NCBI RefSeq assembly: GCF_001436395.1
Contig: NZ_AZGJ01000013.1
Location: 1 to 47,377 of the forward strand
From: Secundilactobacillus malefermentans DSM 5705 = KCTC 3548
GTDB lineage: Bacteria > Bacillota > Bacilli > Lactobacillales > Lactobacillaceae
Length of the DNA: 47,377 nucleotides
Reading direction: 5' to 3'
Positions 21,786 through 38,739 of this stretch are shown here, piece after piece (the stretch's first letter is position 1; each line of letters opens with the position of its first letter). The notes under the pieces were generated by a model. It was given only the letters and a program-made list of their open reading frames with translations, was not told where the DNA came from and made no database searches. Position numbers and translations under genes: made by a program.

Positions 21786-21963
21786 CGTGTTTCTTCCTCC
21801 ATCATATCAAAAAATGATATTGTTCTCATTTTTAAAACTAGCATTATTATTCTTATAACACAAGAATTATAGCTAGTTTCAGCAGTTAATTTTCAATAAG
21901 GGTTGACTATAAATGAGAATAGGGTTAAATTTAATCTAATCAATTTTAAAGGAGAACTTTCAA
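21786..21963. promoter_or_regulatory. aroD/aro operon divergent regulatory region
   Basis: Plus promoter TTGACT (21903-21908), 17 bp, TAAATT (21926-21931) for the aro leader. On the minus strand TATAAT (21871-21866), with TTGAAA 19 bp away, may serve aroD. Two inverted repeats lie on the aroD side: ATATCA-N5-TGATAT (21804-21820), and a longer one with outer arms AAACTAGC/GCTAGTTT and inner ATTCTT/AAGAAT (about 21835-21879). They could be operators or aroD leader hairpins. Confidence 0.6.
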
Positions 21964-22005
21964 ATGACTAAATCAACTCGCTATTATTACTATTGGTTTA
22001 TCTAG
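21964..22005 (+). CDS. Aromatic leader peptide
   Basis: 13-residue ORF MTKSTRYYYYWFI with AAAGGAG 9 nt before its ATG. Codons 7-12 are Tyr, Tyr, Tyr, Tyr, Trp, Phe, exactly the end products of the pathway encoded downstream. This is the hallmark of ribosome-mediated attenuation, in which starvation for charged tRNA stalls the ribosome and changes folding of the RNA ahead. It sits 197 nt upstream of aroC, in a transcript that ends in an intrinsic terminator (22148-22178) unless antitermination occurs. Confidence 0.85.
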   Translation: MTKSTRYYYYWFI

Positions 22006-22012
22006 TGTTTGT

Positions 22013-22178
22013 GCCGCGGAAGGTGCAGACACTTGTTTGCATCCGATGCGGCCAATAGTTGATTTGGAAAGATCTCTTGGTCTCGCAGACGATTTATGGA
22101 AAGAAAATCTGCAGGCCACACAGCCGTCTTTAATTTATAAATGTGTGAATCCCGCAGAATAATCTGCGGGATTTTTTT
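22013..22178 (+). promoter_or_regulatory. aro operon transcription attenuator
   Basis: Hairpin A: GCCGC (22013-22017) with GCGGC (22048-22052), and inside it GGTGCA (22022-22027) with TGCATC (22038-22043). Segment 1 GCAGA (22085-22089) can pair with segment 2 TCTGC (22108-22112). Segment 2 TCTGCAGG (22108-22115), plus CACAC (22117-22121), can instead pair with segment 3 CCCGCAGA (22151-22158), plus GTGTG (22143-22147). Segment 3 also forms the terminator with TCTGCGGGATT (22163-22173), followed by a T-run. The pairings are mutually exclusive, as in classical attenuators. Confidence 0.78.
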
Positions 22179-22201
22179 AATTCAAAATGGAGGGTTTCAA
22201 A

Positions 22202-23377
22202 ATGAGATATGTCACTGCGGGAGAATCCCACGGACCAGCGCTAACAGCCATCATCGAAGGGTTGCCAGCTGGATTAACAATTAGTGAAGCACAAATAAAC
22301 GAGGACTTACATCGACGTCAGCAAGGTTATGGGCGGGGAAATCGCCAAAAGATTGAGTCCGACCATGTTGAAATTTCATCCGGAGTTCGCCACCAGTTAA
22401 CCATTGGATCACCAGTAACACTCCGAGTTGTAAATGATGATTTTCGCCACTGGCAGGAAATTATGGATCCCAGCAGTGAAGCTACTGCAGAAAACTCAGT
22501 TCGTAAGGTTGAGCGGCCCCGTCCCGGTCACGCCGATTTAGTGGGCGGAATGAAGTATCGCCATCACGATTTACGAAACGTTTTGGAACGTTCGAGCGCC
22601 CGGGAAACAACCATGCGGGTGGCCGTTGGGAGCGTTGCAAAGCAATTATTAGCGCAAATTGGGGTTGAAGTTTTAGGATTTGTTCGCCAAATCGGACCAG
22701 TCAGCGCGGATCCCACCAAGCTAAATACATTTGCTGATTTAGCGGCTTTAAAGGTCGCCACTGATCAAAGTGAAACGCGCACATTCGATTCTGACGCAGA
22801 AACCAAGATGAAAGTTCTGATTGATGAGACCAAAAAAGCCGGCGATACGCTGGGCGGCATCGTTCAGGTCCTAGCAACTGGCTTACCAGTTGGGCTAGGA
22901 AGTTACGTTTCCGCAGAGACAAAAATGGACGGCAAATTAGCACAGGCAATCATCGGTATCAACGCGTTTAAGGGCGTGGAATTTGGTGAAGGATTCCAAT
23001 TTGCTAATCATCCAGGTAGCGAAGGAATGGACGAAATATTTTGGCAAAAGGATCAGGGCTTCTATCGGGAAACCGACCACCTTGGCGGATTTGAAGGTGG
23101 GATGACAAATGGCATGCCGGTTAACATTAAAGCGGTGATGAAGCCGATTCCGACTTTATACAAGCCGCTACGAAGCGTGGACATTAAGACGAAGGAAGCC
23201 TATAAGGCTAACGTTGAGCGTTCCGATACGACGGCGGTCACCGCGGCGGCGGTAGTTGCGGAAGCGATGACGGCAATCACATTGGCAGAAGCGGTCCTTG
23301 ATAAATTTGACGCCGATTCAATGGCACGATTACAGGAACAACTGACTAATTACAATGAAGAAATTAAGAATTTCTAG
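22202..23377 (+). CDS. aroC: Chorismate synthase
   Basis: 391 residues from the ATG at 22202, which has GGAGGG 8-9 nt upstream; a frame from 22187 would start inside that site. It catalyses the last common step, EPSP to chorismate, using reduced FMN. The GESHGPAL motif is at 7-14, then RRQQGYGRGNRQ and SSARETTMRVAVG, and a C-terminal RSDTTAVTAAAVVAEAM; family length is normal. It is the first structural gene of the aro operon, directly behind the attenuator, with 11 nt to aroA. Confidence 0.96.
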   Translation: MRYVTAGESHGPALTAIIEGLPAGLTISEAQINEDLHRRQQGYGRGNRQKIESDHVEISSGVRHQLTIGSPVTLRVVNDDFRHWQEIMDPSSEATAENSVRKVERPRPGHADLVGGMKYRHHDLRNVLERSSARETTMRVAVGSVAKQLLAQIGVEVLGFVRQIGPVSADPTKLNTFADLAALKVATDQSETRTFDSDAETKMKVLIDETKKAGDTLGGIVQVLATGLPVGLGSYVSAETKMDGKLAQAIIGINAFKGVEFGEGFQFANHPGSEGMDEIFWQKDQGFYRETDHLGGFEGGMTNGMPVNIKAVMKPIPTLYKPLRSVDIKTKEAYKANVERSDTTAVTAAAVVAEAMTAITLAEAVLDKFDADSMARLQEQLTNYNEEIKNF

Positions 23378-23388
23378 GAGGAATTTGA

Positions 23389-24696
23389 ATGGGACATACA
23401 CTGTTAACGAATCAGCGCAATTTGACTGGGACCATTCAGGTTCCTGGCGACAAAAGTATTTCTCACCGAAGCTTGATGTTTGGTGCAATCAGTGAAGGCA
23501 AAACGGTGGTTGATAATCTCCTGTTTTCGGAGGACTGCTTGCATACTTTGGCGGCATTACGACAACTTGGGGTTCCAATTCAGGTGGATGAAGCACATCA
23601 GCACGTGGAAGTAACCGGTGTTGGTCTTGACGGATTACAAGCCACAAATCAGCCACTAAATATGGGAAATTCGGGGACGTCAACCCGGCTATTGATGGGG
23701 CTACTAGTGAATCAACCATTTCCACTGACATTTGTCGGGGATGGGTCATTAAGTCAGCGTCCACTCAAACGGGTGACTGATCCCCTCCAACTGATGGGTG
23801 CAAAATTCGAGGAAAATGAGGGACATTTACCCATTACGATGGCCCCAAGTAAGGGACTAAGCGCCATTACTTACAAGCTCCCAGTCGCAAGTGCGCAGGT
23901 GAAAAGTGCCATTTTGCTGGCGGCAATTCAAGCGGATCAACCAAGTGTATTGGTCGAAAAGACAGTCACGCGGGATCACACGGAACGAATGCTTCAACGA
24001 TTTGGTGGCGAGATAAAGCGAGAAGGGTTAACCCTTACGGTGACGCCTAAACCTCATTTAACTGGGCAACACATCACGGTTCCGGGAGATTTCTCCTCAG
24101 CAGCATTTTTCCTCGTTGCTGGTCTGTTAGTTCCCGACAGTACCCTAGTTTTAAAAAACGTGGGGCTAAATCAAACGCGAACCGGGCTGCTCAAGTTATT
24201 AAAATGCATGGGTGCGGTTATCGAAATCTCGGAACGCGCCGATGATTCTGAACCAACAGCGACGCTAACCGTCCATCAGCAAGCCCTACACAGGATCACA
24301 GTTGATGCGAATGATGTGGCTCTAGCCATCGATGAGATTCCACTGGTTGCGCTGTTGGCAACCCAGGCAACGGGTCAAACGGTGATCACAGGTGCTGAGG
24401 AACTTCGATTTAAAGAAACCGACCGAATCAAAACGGTTTCTGAAGAGCTTAATAAATTAGGTGCACACATCGCACCGACAAAAGATGGCATGGTGATTGA
24501 AGGCCAGACACCGTTGAAAGTTATCGGTAAGCAAAACGTTGACAGCCATGGCGATCATCGGATTGCGATGATGCTGGCAGTGGCGGCACTCATCACTGAA
24601 GGTCAGGTCGACTTGCAGGATGCAGAAGCAGTTGCCGTTTCATACCCAACGTTTTTGACTGAATTGGAACGACTTTGTGGAGGTGTCATCGCATGA
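23389..24696 (+). CDS. aroA: EPSP synthase (3-phosphoshikimate 1-carboxyvinyltransferase)
   Basis: 435 residues. It joins shikimate-3-phosphate and phosphoenolpyruvate. Signature motifs are PGDKSISHRSL (19-29, with the conserved Lys, Ser and Arg), NMGNSGTSTRLLMG for the PEP site, QVKSAILLA, and EELRFKETDRI near 340. Two-domain length is standard. AGGAGG precedes the ATG by 7 nt. Its TGA overlaps the tyrA ATG (ATGA), indicating coupled translation. Second gene of the operon. Confidence 0.97.
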   Translation: MGHTLLTNQRNLTGTIQVPGDKSISHRSLMFGAISEGKTVVDNLLFSEDCLHTLAALRQLGVPIQVDEAHQHVEVTGVGLDGLQATNQPLNMGNSGTSTRLLMGLLVNQPFPLTFVGDGSLSQRPLKRVTDPLQLMGAKFEENEGHLPITMAPSKGLSAITYKLPVASAQVKSAILLAAIQADQPSVLVEKTVTRDHTERMLQRFGGEIKREGLTLTVTPKPHLTGQHITVPGDFSSAAFFLVAGLLVPDSTLVLKNVGLNQTRTGLLKLLKCMGAVIEISERADDSEPTATLTVHQQALHRITVDANDVALAIDEIPLVALLATQATGQTVITGAEELRFKETDRIKTVSEELNKLGAHIAPTKDGMVIEGQTPLKVIGKQNVDSHGDHRIAMMLAVAALITEGQVDLQDAEAVAVSYPTFLTELERLCGGVIA

Positions 24697-25529
24697 CACA
24701 ACTGATGATTGTTGGCCTGGGTGAAATGGGGGGCTCACTGGCTGCCAGCCTCAAGGCCAAAAAAGTGGCCGTCGACATTACGGGCGTTGATCAAAACCAG
24801 CAGTCACTCACGGTTGGCCTTTCGAAGGGCTGGATTGATCAGGCTGGAACGTTGGCTGACGCGAGTGAAATGGACTTCATTGTTTTGGCCACACCAGTTA
24901 CAATCATTCGCCAAACGTTAGCCCAACTCGCAAAGCAGCCACTTAAATCAACGGTAGTGGTAACTGATTTGGGAAGTACCAAGGGTCAAATCACCCAGAT
25001 TGGCGATCAATTGGGGGCACGTTTCATTGGTGGCCATCCGATGATTGGTAGCCAAAAGGCGGGAATTGAAGCGGCGGACGCAAAGTTGTTAGTCGGCTGC
25101 CAGTACTTTTTAACGCCGACCACGCCGACCGTCGCAATGGTCAAATGGCAAACGCTACTAACGCCACTGCAAATTAGCTGGCACATCATGAGCCCTGCTA
25201 ATCACGATCAAATGATGGCAACGCTGAGTGATTTGCCACACGTTGTCGCCGCGACTTTGGCAGTGACAGCCAGTGAGACCTTCCAGGATGATGCTAGTAA
25301 GTTCAAACTCGCTGCGGGTGGTTTCAAAGATACGACCCGAATTGGCGCAGCAGATCCAACCATGTGGCGCGATATTCTTTTATCAAATCAGGAGAGTACG
25401 TTAGCGGAGATTGACCATTTTCAAACTAAATTAGCAAAACTAAGGGAAGCAATTGCGGCAAATGATGGACAGGCAATCATGGACTATTTTAAACAGGGTC
25501 AGGCCGTCCACAACAAATTGAAGGAGTGA
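24693..25529 (+). CDS. tyrA: Prephenate dehydrogenase
   Basis: 278 residues from the ATG at 24693 (GGAGGTG 8 nt upstream); an earlier in-frame GTG at 24675 lies inside aroA and is not needed. NAD(P)-binding GLGEMGGS lies at 8-15. The TyrA-type GGHPMIGSQKAGIEAA and the ATLSDLPHVVAATLA helix follow, with FKDTTRIGAADPTMWRDI later. It oxidatively decarboxylates prephenate to 4-hydroxyphenylpyruvate for tyrosine. No ACT or fused chorismate mutase domain; a separate mutase is encoded two genes on. Five bases separate it from aroK. Confidence 0.93.
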   Translation: MTQLMIVGLGEMGGSLAASLKAKKVAVDITGVDQNQQSLTVGLSKGWIDQAGTLADASEMDFIVLATPVTIIRQTLAQLAKQPLKSTVVVTDLGSTKGQITQIGDQLGARFIGGHPMIGSQKAGIEAADAKLLVGCQYFLTPTTPTVAMVKWQTLLTPLQISWHIMSPANHDQMMATLSDLPHVVAATLAVTASETFQDDASKFKLAAGGFKDTTRIGAADPTMWRDILLSNQESTLAEIDHFQTKLAKLREAIAANDGQAIMDYFKQGQAVHNKLKE

Positions 25530-25534
25530 TTGAA

Positions 25535-26056
25535 ATGTCATTAATATTAGTCGGATTCATGGGAGCAGGAAAAACCACCATTGGGCAACAAATTTCACCA
25601 TTGATTCATTTACCTCAACAAGATTTAGATGATTTGATTATCAAAAAGGCTGGTAAGCCAATCCCCCAAATATTTGATGAAGTCGGTGAGGCTGGTTTCC
25701 GCCAATTGGAAACCCAAGTCCTGGAAAGCACGATTGATGATGCAGCCGTTATTTCGACCGGTGGGGGGGTAATTATGCAGACAATTAATCGACATTTATT
25801 GCAGGGAGCACTTGCACCGGTGGTATACTTAAAGACGAGTTTTGAAACTATTTTGGCCCGAATTCAAAATGACGACAACCGACCATTGGCAACCAACATT
25901 ACGGCCATGGCTAGACTATTCAACCAGCGTCAAAGCCTTTACGAGGAAGTGGCGGATATCGTGGTGGATACGGATGCAAAATCTCCCGCATTCATTTCGA
26001 CGGAGATTATGAATCAGTTGGCAAGCGTCAGCGAATTAAGGCACAGTGCAATGTAA
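25535..26056 (+). CDS. aroK: Shikimate kinase
   Basis: 173 residues from the ATG at 25535, with AAGGAG 8 nt upstream. The Walker A loop GFMGAGKTT is at 7-15, the shikimate-binding aspartate is in QQDLDD, GEAGFRQLE and STGGGVI are the usual substrate-contact motifs, and the lid arginine is in NRPLA. It phosphorylates shikimate with ATP. Fourth gene of the operon; 12 nt to the chorismate mutase. Confidence 0.95.
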   Translation: MSLILVGFMGAGKTTIGQQISPLIHLPQQDLDDLIIKKAGKPIPQIFDEVGEAGFRQLETQVLESTIDDAAVISTGGGVIMQTINRHLLQGALAPVVYLKTSFETILARIQNDDNRPLATNITAMARLFNQRQSLYEEVADIVVDTDAKSPAFISTEIMNQLASVSELRHSAM

Positions 26057-26068
26057 GGAGGCACCTTT

Positions 26069-26353
26069 GTGGCAGAGGATCTTGCACAATTAAGACAGCA
26101 GATTGATGATTTAGATGACCAAGTGCTCACGATTTTGGCAAAACGATTTGAAGTTGTTAAGCGAGTTGCGGCATACAAAAAGGAACACAAACTGCCTGTC
26201 GTTCAGGAAGATCGAATGGCGGGAGTCGTAACGCGTTTAGCGACGGTACATAAAAGTGCAGAAATGACGCCTGAATTCATTTCAAAACTGTATCGGTTGA
26301 TTATGAATCAGGCGGTAACGGCTGAGAATTCATGGGTTGATGAGTCAAATTAA
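26069..26353 (+). CDS. Chorismate mutase (AroQ class, monofunctional)
   Basis: 94-residue all-helical chorismate mutase type II. LRQQIDDLDDQVLTILAKRFEV is the typical first helix, K38-K39 follows, and the final helix contains the usual arginine and glutamine region. It converts chorismate to prephenate, feeding tyrA. The start is GTG at 26069 with AAGGAGG 9 nt upstream. It overlaps the next gene. No prephenate dehydratase (pheA) is seen in the window. Confidence 0.9.
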   Translation: MAEDLAQLRQQIDDLDDQVLTILAKRFEVVKRVAAYKKEHKLPVVQEDRMAGVVTRLATVHKSAEMTPEFISKLYRLIMNQAVTAENSWVDESN

Positions 26354-27044
26354 CAACAAATTAAGGAAACGGGTGGCTCTTTTGGAAACTGATACACAAT
26401 TAGCAGCGGTACAACAATTTACGAAAGCACGGATGGCTGATGACGAAACAGGTCACGGCTATGATCATATTCAGCGAGTCGTCAATAACGTTAAACAGCT
26501 ATTGGCAAAGGAAACTGGTGCAGACCAGTTAGTGACAATTAGCGCCGCCTATTTACACGACGTAACGGACGACAAGCTTGTCGAAGATGTTAACGCAGCG
26601 ACGGATGAGTTGACGAACTTTTTAAAGGAAACTCATTTTTCAGAGGACCAAGTTGCTGAAATTTTAGAAATTATTGCGAACATGTCGTTTAGTAAATCGC
26701 TAAATGGTCAGAATGCAAAGCCACTTCCCATCGAAGGGCAGTTAGTTCAGGATGCCGATCGATTAGATGCAATCGGGGCAATTGGCATTGCCCGCGCGAT
26801 TTATTTTGGCGGTCATTTTGGTGAAAAATTGTATGATCCCGAAATTGCACCTCGCGTAGAGATGACGAAGGCGGATTACCGCGACTTGTCGAACGAAACG
26901 ATTATTAATCACTTTTACGAGAAACTATTGAAACTTAAGGATCGAATGAATACCAACGCTGCAAAGGAAATTGCAACGGGACGTCAAAAAACGATGCTGG
27001 AATTCTTGGATAATTTTAAGGATGAATGGGACGGTATTCAGTAG
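26340..27044 (+). CDS. HD-domain phosphohydrolase
   Basis: About 234 residues of the YedJ/YpgQ HD superfamily. Metal ligands appear as H43 in GYDHIQRV, H73-D74 in YLHDVTDD and the aspartate in DADRLDAIG, followed by the IGIARAI turn. Such proteins hydrolyse nucleotides or related phosphates. The start is uncertain: ATG 26340 (overlapping the mutase by 14 nt, no good ribosome site) or GTG 26373 (AAGGA 5 nt upstream). It is last in the aro operon, apparently as a passenger, and ends in a terminator. Confidence 0.85.
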   Translation: MSQINNKLRKRVALLETDTQLAAVQQFTKARMADDETGHGYDHIQRVVNNVKQLLAKETGADQLVTISAAYLHDVTDDKLVEDVNAATDELTNFLKETHFSEDQVAEILEIIANMSFSKSLNGQNAKPLPIEGQLVQDADRLDAIGAIGIARAIYFGGHFGEKLYDPEIAPRVEMTKADYRDLSNETIINHFYEKLLKLKDRMNTNAAKEIATGRQKTMLEFLDNFKDEWDGIQ

Positions 27045-38526: not shown

Positions 38527-38739
38527 TATGCGATGAGTCGAAGAAATCACGCCGCATTTATGCGGTCCGCGCAAGCGGCTAGGTGATGTTTCGAATGCAG
38601 GGGCAAGGTAACACCCACCGGATATGCGGGAGCCTTGATTCCAACGGATTGTGGAGTTCAGTGAATCTATTTACATGCAAATGTAAGTACTGTAGATCAT
38701 AAAAGACCAACCAAATTAATTTTTGGTTGGTCTTTTTTT
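38527..38739 (+). ncRNA. Free-standing structured RNA, family not identified
   Basis: Promoter: TTTCAT (38492-38497), 17 bp, TAGAGT (38515-38520) with TG one base before it. The RNA contains two GC-rich hairpins in tandem, CCGCATTTATGCGG and CCGCGCAAGCGG. They are closed together by CGAAGAAATCAC/GTGATGTTTCG into a multi-way junction. Then come CAAGG/CCTTG around CACCGGATATGCGGG, a TTTACAT/ATGTAA hairpin, and ends that can pair (TTATG..AT/ATCATAA). A 15-bp terminator (38701-38736) with seven T ends it. It is not RNase P, SRP, tmRNA or a riboswitch I know. 6S-like or raiA-type RNAs should be tested. Confidence 0.65.
38701..38739 (+). terminator. Terminator of the structured RNA
   Basis: AAAAGACCAACCAAA (38701-38715) pairs with TTTGGTTGGTCTTTT (38722-38736); long T-run. 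Confidence 0.92.

Follow-up and report, generated by a model that had tools for sequence, protein, structure and literature searches.

In proteobacteria, the trp, phe and his attenuators contain a short translated ORF with regulatory codons; the segment bearing these codons pairs with the one that follows it, and an antiterminator competes with a terminator. The lactic acid bacteria are heavy users of T-boxes.

According to the accessible portions of the respective reports, a leucine-rich attenuator peptide with genetic evidence has been described for ilvD of S. aureus (PMC5794164), and His leader peptides in place of T-boxes have been predicted for hisS and hisZ of bacilli (PMC2965389). A case with an aromatic amino acid is uORFC-13-1, upstream of aroF in Acholeplasma, where a terminator and a leader ORF containing one or more Phe codons have been predicted and the 24 representatives of which are given in the accessible part of the report as coming from Acholeplasma and environmental sequences only (PMC8632094). 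Among the titles and abstracts listed by the literature searches, none described the leader family presented here; an earlier description elsewhere is possible. A text search with five aromatic strings found no paper, and the accessible parts of PMC3166299, PMC7724050 and PMC7829361 yielded nothing helpful by term search.

The window, that is, the whole stretch of 47,377 nucleotides analysed here, contains the region 21964-22178, which we propose, with a probability of roughly 85%, to be a ribosome-mediated transcription attenuator of the aroC operon; its parts were taken from sequence and comparison, and from these we infer its dynamics. It is most likely that translation of the leader decides between an early stop of transcription and its continuation. 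To the first-pass annotation of this locus are added a proposed chain of six segments, covariation in support of the codon pairing, a distribution throughout the order before genes of synthesis, aminotransferases and transport, and an overlap of part of the leader family with a small RNA family.

Architecture of the leader and the proposed switch

The following features, all on the forward strand, were assigned in the window:

21903-21931 (+), sigma-70-like promoter candidate TTGACT-17-TAAATT, by consensus match only (9/12)
21950-21954 (+), Shine-Dalgarno sequence AGGAG of the leader ORF, from the sequence
21964-22005 (+), leader ORF MTKSTRYYYYWFI with its stop codon, from the sequence and from same-register aromatic ORFs in relatives
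21970-21978 (+), codons 3-5, AAATCAACT, a window-specific pairing with 22057-22065, from complementarity and folding
21989-21996 (+), segment 1, ACTATTGG of the Tyr-Tyr-Trp codons, with its complement at 22052-22059, from covariation and swap tests
22004-22033 (+), hairpin alpha, arms 22004-22015 and 22022-22033, from codon-masked folds (transcript ends 22095 and 22160) and the swap test
22013-22052 (+), hairpin beta, called hairpin A in the first-pass annotation, from folding, covariation and the swap test
22034-22059 (+), segment 2, from complementarity, folding and swap tests
22074-22091 (+), segment 3, partner of 2 or 4, from folding and swap tests
22108-22121 (+), segment 4, from folding and the swap test for 4:5
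22143-22158 (+), segment 5, 5' arm of the terminator or 3' arm of the antiterminator, from folding
22163-22178 (+), segment 6, 3' arm of the terminator and U tract, from terminator prediction
22187-23377 (+), aroC, chorismate synthase, first gene of the likely operon (PF01264)
23389-27044 (+), remaining genes of this operon, coding for EPSP synthase, prephenate dehydrogenase, shikimate kinase, chorismate mutase and an HD-domain protein

The leader ORF comprised 13 codons, from the ATG at 21964 to the TAG at 22003-22005, and its aromatic codons occupied 21982-21999 in the order of four Tyr, Trp and Phe. The AGGAG was spaced 9 nt from the ATG. Hence, a short ORF with a ribosome site and consecutive Tyr, Trp and Phe codons was present in the sequence as the first-pass annotation had claimed, and the codons for the regulated amino acids were clustered, as in attenuators. 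In the upstream regions of relatives that were displayed, a TTGAC was placed similarly to that of the promoter candidate.

The transcript 21945-22178 folded with a z-score of -6.28, and none of 200 shuffles folded as well. Hairpin alpha begins at the leader stop codon and is mutually exclusive with hairpin beta, which has a core of 22022-22030/22035-22043 and an extension of 22013-22018/22047-22052. Segment 2 may pair with the codons, through CCAATAGT at 22052-22059; alternatively, its parts 22034-22040 and 22052-22058 may pair with 22085-22091 and 22074-22080 of segment 3, respectively. Within segment 4, TCTGCAGGCC pairs with 22079-22089 (3:4; the second hairpin of the leader spans 22079-22117), and TCTGCAGG together with CACAC pairs with 22143-22158 to give the 4:5 antiterminator. 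An intrinsic terminator at 22148-22178 lies between the leader and the first gene, upstream of aroC; its arms, 22148-22158 and 22163-22173, form a perfect 11-bp helix, and the T tract runs to 22178. The mutually exclusive pairings and the aroC-proximal terminator described earlier were thus recovered by folding and terminator prediction.

We propose that the six segments act as a row of dominoes, in which pairings 1:2, 3:4 and 5:6 would lead to termination, and pairings 2:3 and 4:5 would lead to read-through upon a ribosome stall. When charged aromatic tRNAs are plentiful, the ribosome would complete the leader peptide and reach the TAG at 22003. There it would cover the 5' arm of alpha and beta would form; since this arm begins with the stop codon, a terminating ribosome would favour beta. 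Once the ribosome had gone, segment 1, and in the window also codons 3-5, would pair with segment 2, with beta inside. Segment 2 being occupied, 3:4 would form, segment 4 would be unavailable to segment 5, and the terminator 5:6 would stop transcription. When Tyr, Trp or Phe was scarce, the ribosome would sit on the aromatic codons and segment 1 could not hold segment 2. Alpha would then replace beta, 2:3 would form, segment 4 would be freed for segment 5, and the RNA polymerase would enter aroC. In some relatives, a U run after 3:4 would give two tandem terminators, both cancelled by one antiterminator.

The extra relay through hairpin A that had been suggested earlier was largely supported, as the codons would act on the terminator via segments 2 (22034-22059) and 3 (22074-22091). 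The earlier placement of the codons at a distance from the pairing segments was right in that a relay is needed, but the codons themselves were found to pair with segment 2, in the helix that was best supported over the relatives.

Folding of the window and support for the helices in relatives

With the codons masked and the transcript ended at 22095, the predicted fold consisted of alpha and of the pairing 22034-22040:22085-22091. At a transcript end of 22160, the probability of 4:5 was 0.77 in the ribosome-free RNA, 0.83 when a ribosome occupied the stop codon and 0.96 when the codons were masked. At a transcript end of 22125, the codon-masked RNA still favoured 3:4 (0.98), and when segment 6 was included, the terminator prevailed in all three ribosome states. 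The codon helix of the window, 21989-21996:22052-22059, had a probability of 0.0 in every fold state computed, because codons 3-5 (21970-21978) and the extension of beta occupied segment 2; in the unmasked RNA the pairing 21970-21978:22057-22065 held this segment with a probability of 0.94-0.98. The inner 2:3 pairing, 22052-22055:22077-22080, reached only 0-0.06. Folding with and without masked codons, which the first-pass annotation had put forward as a check, thus raised 4:5 to 0.96, but the states were only weakly separated and the terminator was always the final structure. Equilibrium folding appears to support the direction of the switch but not its size; in view of the weak separation, the switch would require co-transcriptional kinetics or the order of synthesis.

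Further, the helices were evaluated over the relatives. In alignment A3 (102 rows, 100 of them distinct, two on the wrong strand, L110 + and L113 +), which was fitted by a model and as such is biased in favour of the structure underlying the fit, 95.4% of the cells of the codon:segment 2 helix were paired in the 100 distinct rows. All 8 pairs of this helix were changed on both sides, so the covariation that had been proposed for a search of homologous leaders was indeed found there, and the same was true of all 10 pairs of the beta core. The observed scores of these two helices together were attained by none of 500 shuffles. Swaps between Tyr and Phe at the second codon position were compensated by the partner base (A-U 51, U-A 34). 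The two wrong-strand rows were also contained in model R2, described below.

An alignment-independent comparison was made with 101 representatives of the 170 distinct leaders, picked with a rough cut-off of ungapped identity; relatedness therefore remains in these swap tests. In 101/101 representatives, the leader's own codon:segment 2 pairing surpassed the average obtained with 30 swapped partners. The mean of the swapped partners was also exceeded by beta in 89, by 2:3 in 86, by alpha in 85 and by 3:4 in 78 of the 101. For 4:5, examined in 156 leaders after 14 without a second-type terminator were left out, this was the case in 152, and only 41% exceeded at least 95% of the swaps. In 117 leaders, the mean energy of the codon duplex was -18.3, compared with -15.0 after synonymous recoding and -13.2 with swapped partners; at the 0.1 level, the duplex stood out from synonymous recoding in 49% of these leaders and from swaps in 52%. 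In at least 8 leaders of the FYFWYF type, the strongest complement of the codons was located about 100 nt downstream, outside segment 2.

A terminator-like hairpin was recorded in 167/170 leaders, and in 156/170 one started 118-215 nt past the stop codon; an additional, earlier one at the position of 3:4 was seen in 53/170. When the alignments were made class by class with the codons included, the codon:segment 2 helix was present in 9/9 classes. In class folds without the codons (L119, L130 and L148 were left out), 2:3 appeared in 5/9 classes and alpha in 4; the class nearest the window retained beta and was devoid of 2:3. Pairing of the codons with the next segment and a competing antiterminator, two further marks of an attenuator, were thus found computationally over the relatives, and the 4:5 shift of the window itself was weak.

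Distribution of the leaders and the genes behind them

The codon string TAY4-TGG-TTY was found in 27/397 family genomes, and the reversed-pattern control, tallied by hand, gave 29 matches. Fifteen of the 27 occurrences were leader ORFs from genera g1, g3, g14, g33 and g38 (14 were recognised directly and one more, L014/L130, through the search with model R1); the remaining 12 were judged unrelated by eye. Since the reversed control turned up about equally often, the evidence rests on position and on conserved architecture.

Model R1 was built from ten leaders and searched against the family at E up to 0.01; it matched 109/397 genomes in 21/40 genera. It listed 125 places, of which 121 were inspected (under 122 locus ids, as one place was doubly numbered) and the other four, L008-L011, were seen separately. 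At 120/121 inspected places, a short in-register ORF had at least 4 aromatic residues among its last 14, a conservation that follows in part from the search model, which includes the codon columns; independent support for it is given by the reading frame, the ribosome site and the next gene. Relatives that keep the hairpins and lack the aromatic codons, which had been named as evidence against attenuation, were limited among these 121 places to L217, with the weak leader FNDGAFSLFG, which was kept in the counts. The genome of L032 (G019, genus g20) had no R1 match; at about 1186-1254 of this locus, the leader MQKMNINNMTINLNNWFYFYTV was observed upstream of aroC, with a codon-complementary sequence downstream as judged by eye. 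Hence, the family may exceed the count.

Model R2, built from a wider leader set and applied to the order Lactobacillales at E up to 0.001, matched 171/295 genomes in 55/75 genera. The order was named through L289, from a genome of the same order as the window, the DAHP synthase of which was 100% identical to that of Enterococcus mundtii Pe161, a member of this order. Upon examination, 52/55 order loci were judged true; L269, L274 and L275 were rejected as false matches and removed before the terminator, swap and peptide analyses, and L236 was not among the inspected order loci. Overall, 174 distinct places were inspected, with L238 and L239, which occurred in both the family and the order sets, counted once, and an aromatic-rich short ORF in register was present at 170. 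When 249 genomes sampled from the phylum were searched, matches were found only in the genome of the window and in one genome of the same order, and in 0/247 others. The genome of the window contained two further matches, MKLNEKTQLNNCRYYFWFFRV before an apparent aminotransferase (E 9e-4) and MKQAQLKLNNWYYNFYYFR before an apparent MFS transporter (E 0.014). An aromatic leader had been regarded as notable for a lactobacillus; the element is real, but it is not confined to a single lactobacillus and is widespread in the order.

The genes behind the leaders were assigned by a Pfam scan of the longest ORF starting within 900 nt, for which one in six of the 170 distinct leaders was taken at regular intervals. 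All 29 next genes sampled fell within five kinds: ABC substrate-binding protein PF04392 (10), transketolase (6), shikimate dehydrogenase (6), class I/II aminotransferase (5) and DAHP synthase (2). In family loci, chorismate mutase, MFS and NhaC-like genes also followed leaders, as judged by N-termini alone. PF04392 is a general family, and the proteins of this family behind the leaders are presumably TrpX-like. It was also observed that the leaders of L170, L186, L193, L203 and L256-L266, which precede ABC substrate-binding proteins (PF04392 was assigned in those scanned), carry Tyr and Phe codons and no Trp codons. This would predict the import of Tyr and Phe rather than of Trp, and leader codons before each transporter would in the same way predict its substrates. 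If attenuation resembling that of the E. coli trp operon is spread across the order and in the window reads Tyr, Trp and Phe together, it would alter the picture of how aromatic synthesis, transamination and import are controlled; it would also offer many natural variants for testing how long chains of alternative helices transmit the ribosome position.

In the window, the HD-domain protein (26337-27044) is the last gene of the likely aro operon, and a type I 3-dehydroquinase is divergently oriented. The window AroC (22202-23374) was 80% identical to that of a genome from another genus (g3, G002) and only 59-63% identical to those of its own-genus mates, which may reflect horizontal transfer or a labelling problem. 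The leaders of the own-genus mates were mostly FSYYW, in one checked case (L142) before shikimate dehydrogenase. When used as a query against a collection of titled contigs, the window AroC found no relative.

Small RNA 2410, alternative readings and relation to known systems

At the gathering score, Rfam gave no match in the leader and one in the whole window, distant from the leader; on 21850-22250 at E up to 10, all 18 matches were below the cut-offs. The Trp_leader model RF00513 scored the window leader at 16.6 bits, short of its cut-off of 41. No NCBIfam model was found for the ten leader peptides tried. A match to RF02840 (Ref68; Enterococcus sRNA 68, Lacto-3 RNA) with 81.1 bits was recorded at 38529-38659 (+).

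Some of the related leaders coincided with an Rfam small RNA family, RF02863 (Enterococcus sRNA 2410), which matched 4/20 leader loci, 10/11 Enterococcus DAHP synthase loci tested and 0/4 others. The window gave no match to RF02863, and its kinship with this family is through shared members only, such as L186, which matches both R1 and RF02863. Named DAHP synthase loci were collected with the DAHP synthase of L289 as the query: a QLN(N/T)YYFSYFR leader lay within 1.5 kb upstream in 23/24 Enterococcus loci, E. ratti (L313) having none in that range, and of the 42 non-Enterococcus loci one (L334), whose ORF was of a different type, was let through by a loose filter. In L186, L243, L253, L289 and L295, the RF02863 match started 14 nt before the leader stop codon. 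It extended through the second terminator in L289 and L295 (the terminators of L295 were taken from L289, of identical sequence), and ended inside a terminator in L243 and L253 and short of the terminator in L186. RF02863 had no match in the genome of the window, and among 14 control genomes it matched only Sulfolobus acidocaldarius, below the cut-off. The sRNA_2410 of E. faecium is 195 nt long and was confirmed by Northern blotting as two transcripts (PMC5593968); in the accessible text of that report, a term search found neither 'leader' nor 'attenuat'. Two terminated leaders would explain the two transcripts, as we infer from the loci examined, E. faecium itself being outside them. It is suggested that RF02863 is a set of terminated leaders.

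The label of RF02863 raises another reading, in which the terminated transcript is itself the product and acts in trans as a small RNA. That RF02863 matches related leader loci and that sRNA_2410 transcripts were seen on Northern blots (PMC5593968, as far as its accessible text goes) speaks for it, but its matches in the five loci named above begin inside the leader ORF, the covarying codon pairing and the kind of the next gene favour control in cis, and the window has no such match. We consider a purely trans-acting product very unlikely; a cis leader product with an additional role in trans is possible. A tRNA-sensing T-box or a TRAP-type leader would have a negligible chance of being correct: T-boxes are plentiful in the genome of the window (31 matches, 13 above the cut-off), yet 0/31 were on the contig of the window, none was found in the window at the gathering score or in 21850-22250 at E up to 10, and the T-box covariance model RF00230 did not match the leader. 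A chance ORF beside an ordinary terminator is equally far-fetched. The frequency of the codon string, no higher than that of the reversed control, would agree with it, but same-register aromatic ORFs at 120/121 family places and 52/55 order loci already refute it.

The ribosome might also be stalled by the nascent peptide on free aromatic amino acids, with the same RNA dominoes following. Leu-Asn was found in 96/156 distinct leader ORFs (loci L106-L292), in 60 of these as Gln-Leu-Asn and in 65/96 at 10-12 residues from the leader end, with Leu spelled by six codons; Arg was the final residue in 73/156. Such conservation at the level of the peptide would be superfluous for mere codon counting. 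However, the leader of the window has neither Leu-Asn nor a terminal Arg, the conserved residues may stem from common descent, and the identity of the aromatic residues varies among leaders (YYYYWF, FSYYW, FYFWYF, YYYGYY), which fits codon reading better. An arrest peptide was therefore rated improbable. A combined reading, in which the dominoes, with tandem terminators in some members, form an order-wide class, Gln-Leu-Asn ahead of the aromatic residues and Arg at the peptide end help stalling, and free aromatic amino acids are sensed by the same leader along with charged tRNA, is doubtful as well, if slightly less so. The attenuator that reads aromatic codons through the ribosome position remains the preferred reading.

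This attenuator resembles those of the proteobacterial trp, phe and his operons in its short translated ORF of regulatory codons, in the pairing of the codon segment and in the choice between antiterminator and terminator. It differs from them in having six segments with alpha and beta instead of four segments, and in that the window leader encodes all three aromatic amino acids. In related elements, among them those preceding Enterococcus DAHP synthase, RF02863 takes in the hairpins and the last part of the leader ORF; it is filed as an sRNA gene, and neither the window nor the majority of the 20 leader loci gave a match to it. As far as the accessible descriptions go, the ilvD leader of S. 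aureus is likewise a leader-peptide attenuator of a Firmicute, which differs in the branched-chain amino acids and in the group of organisms, and the His leaders of hisS and hisZ are likewise Firmicute leader peptides replacing T-boxes, which differ in sensing histidine and are predicted only. The uORFC-13-1 element, compared by its accessible description, shares a predicted leader ORF with at least one Phe codon and a terminator.
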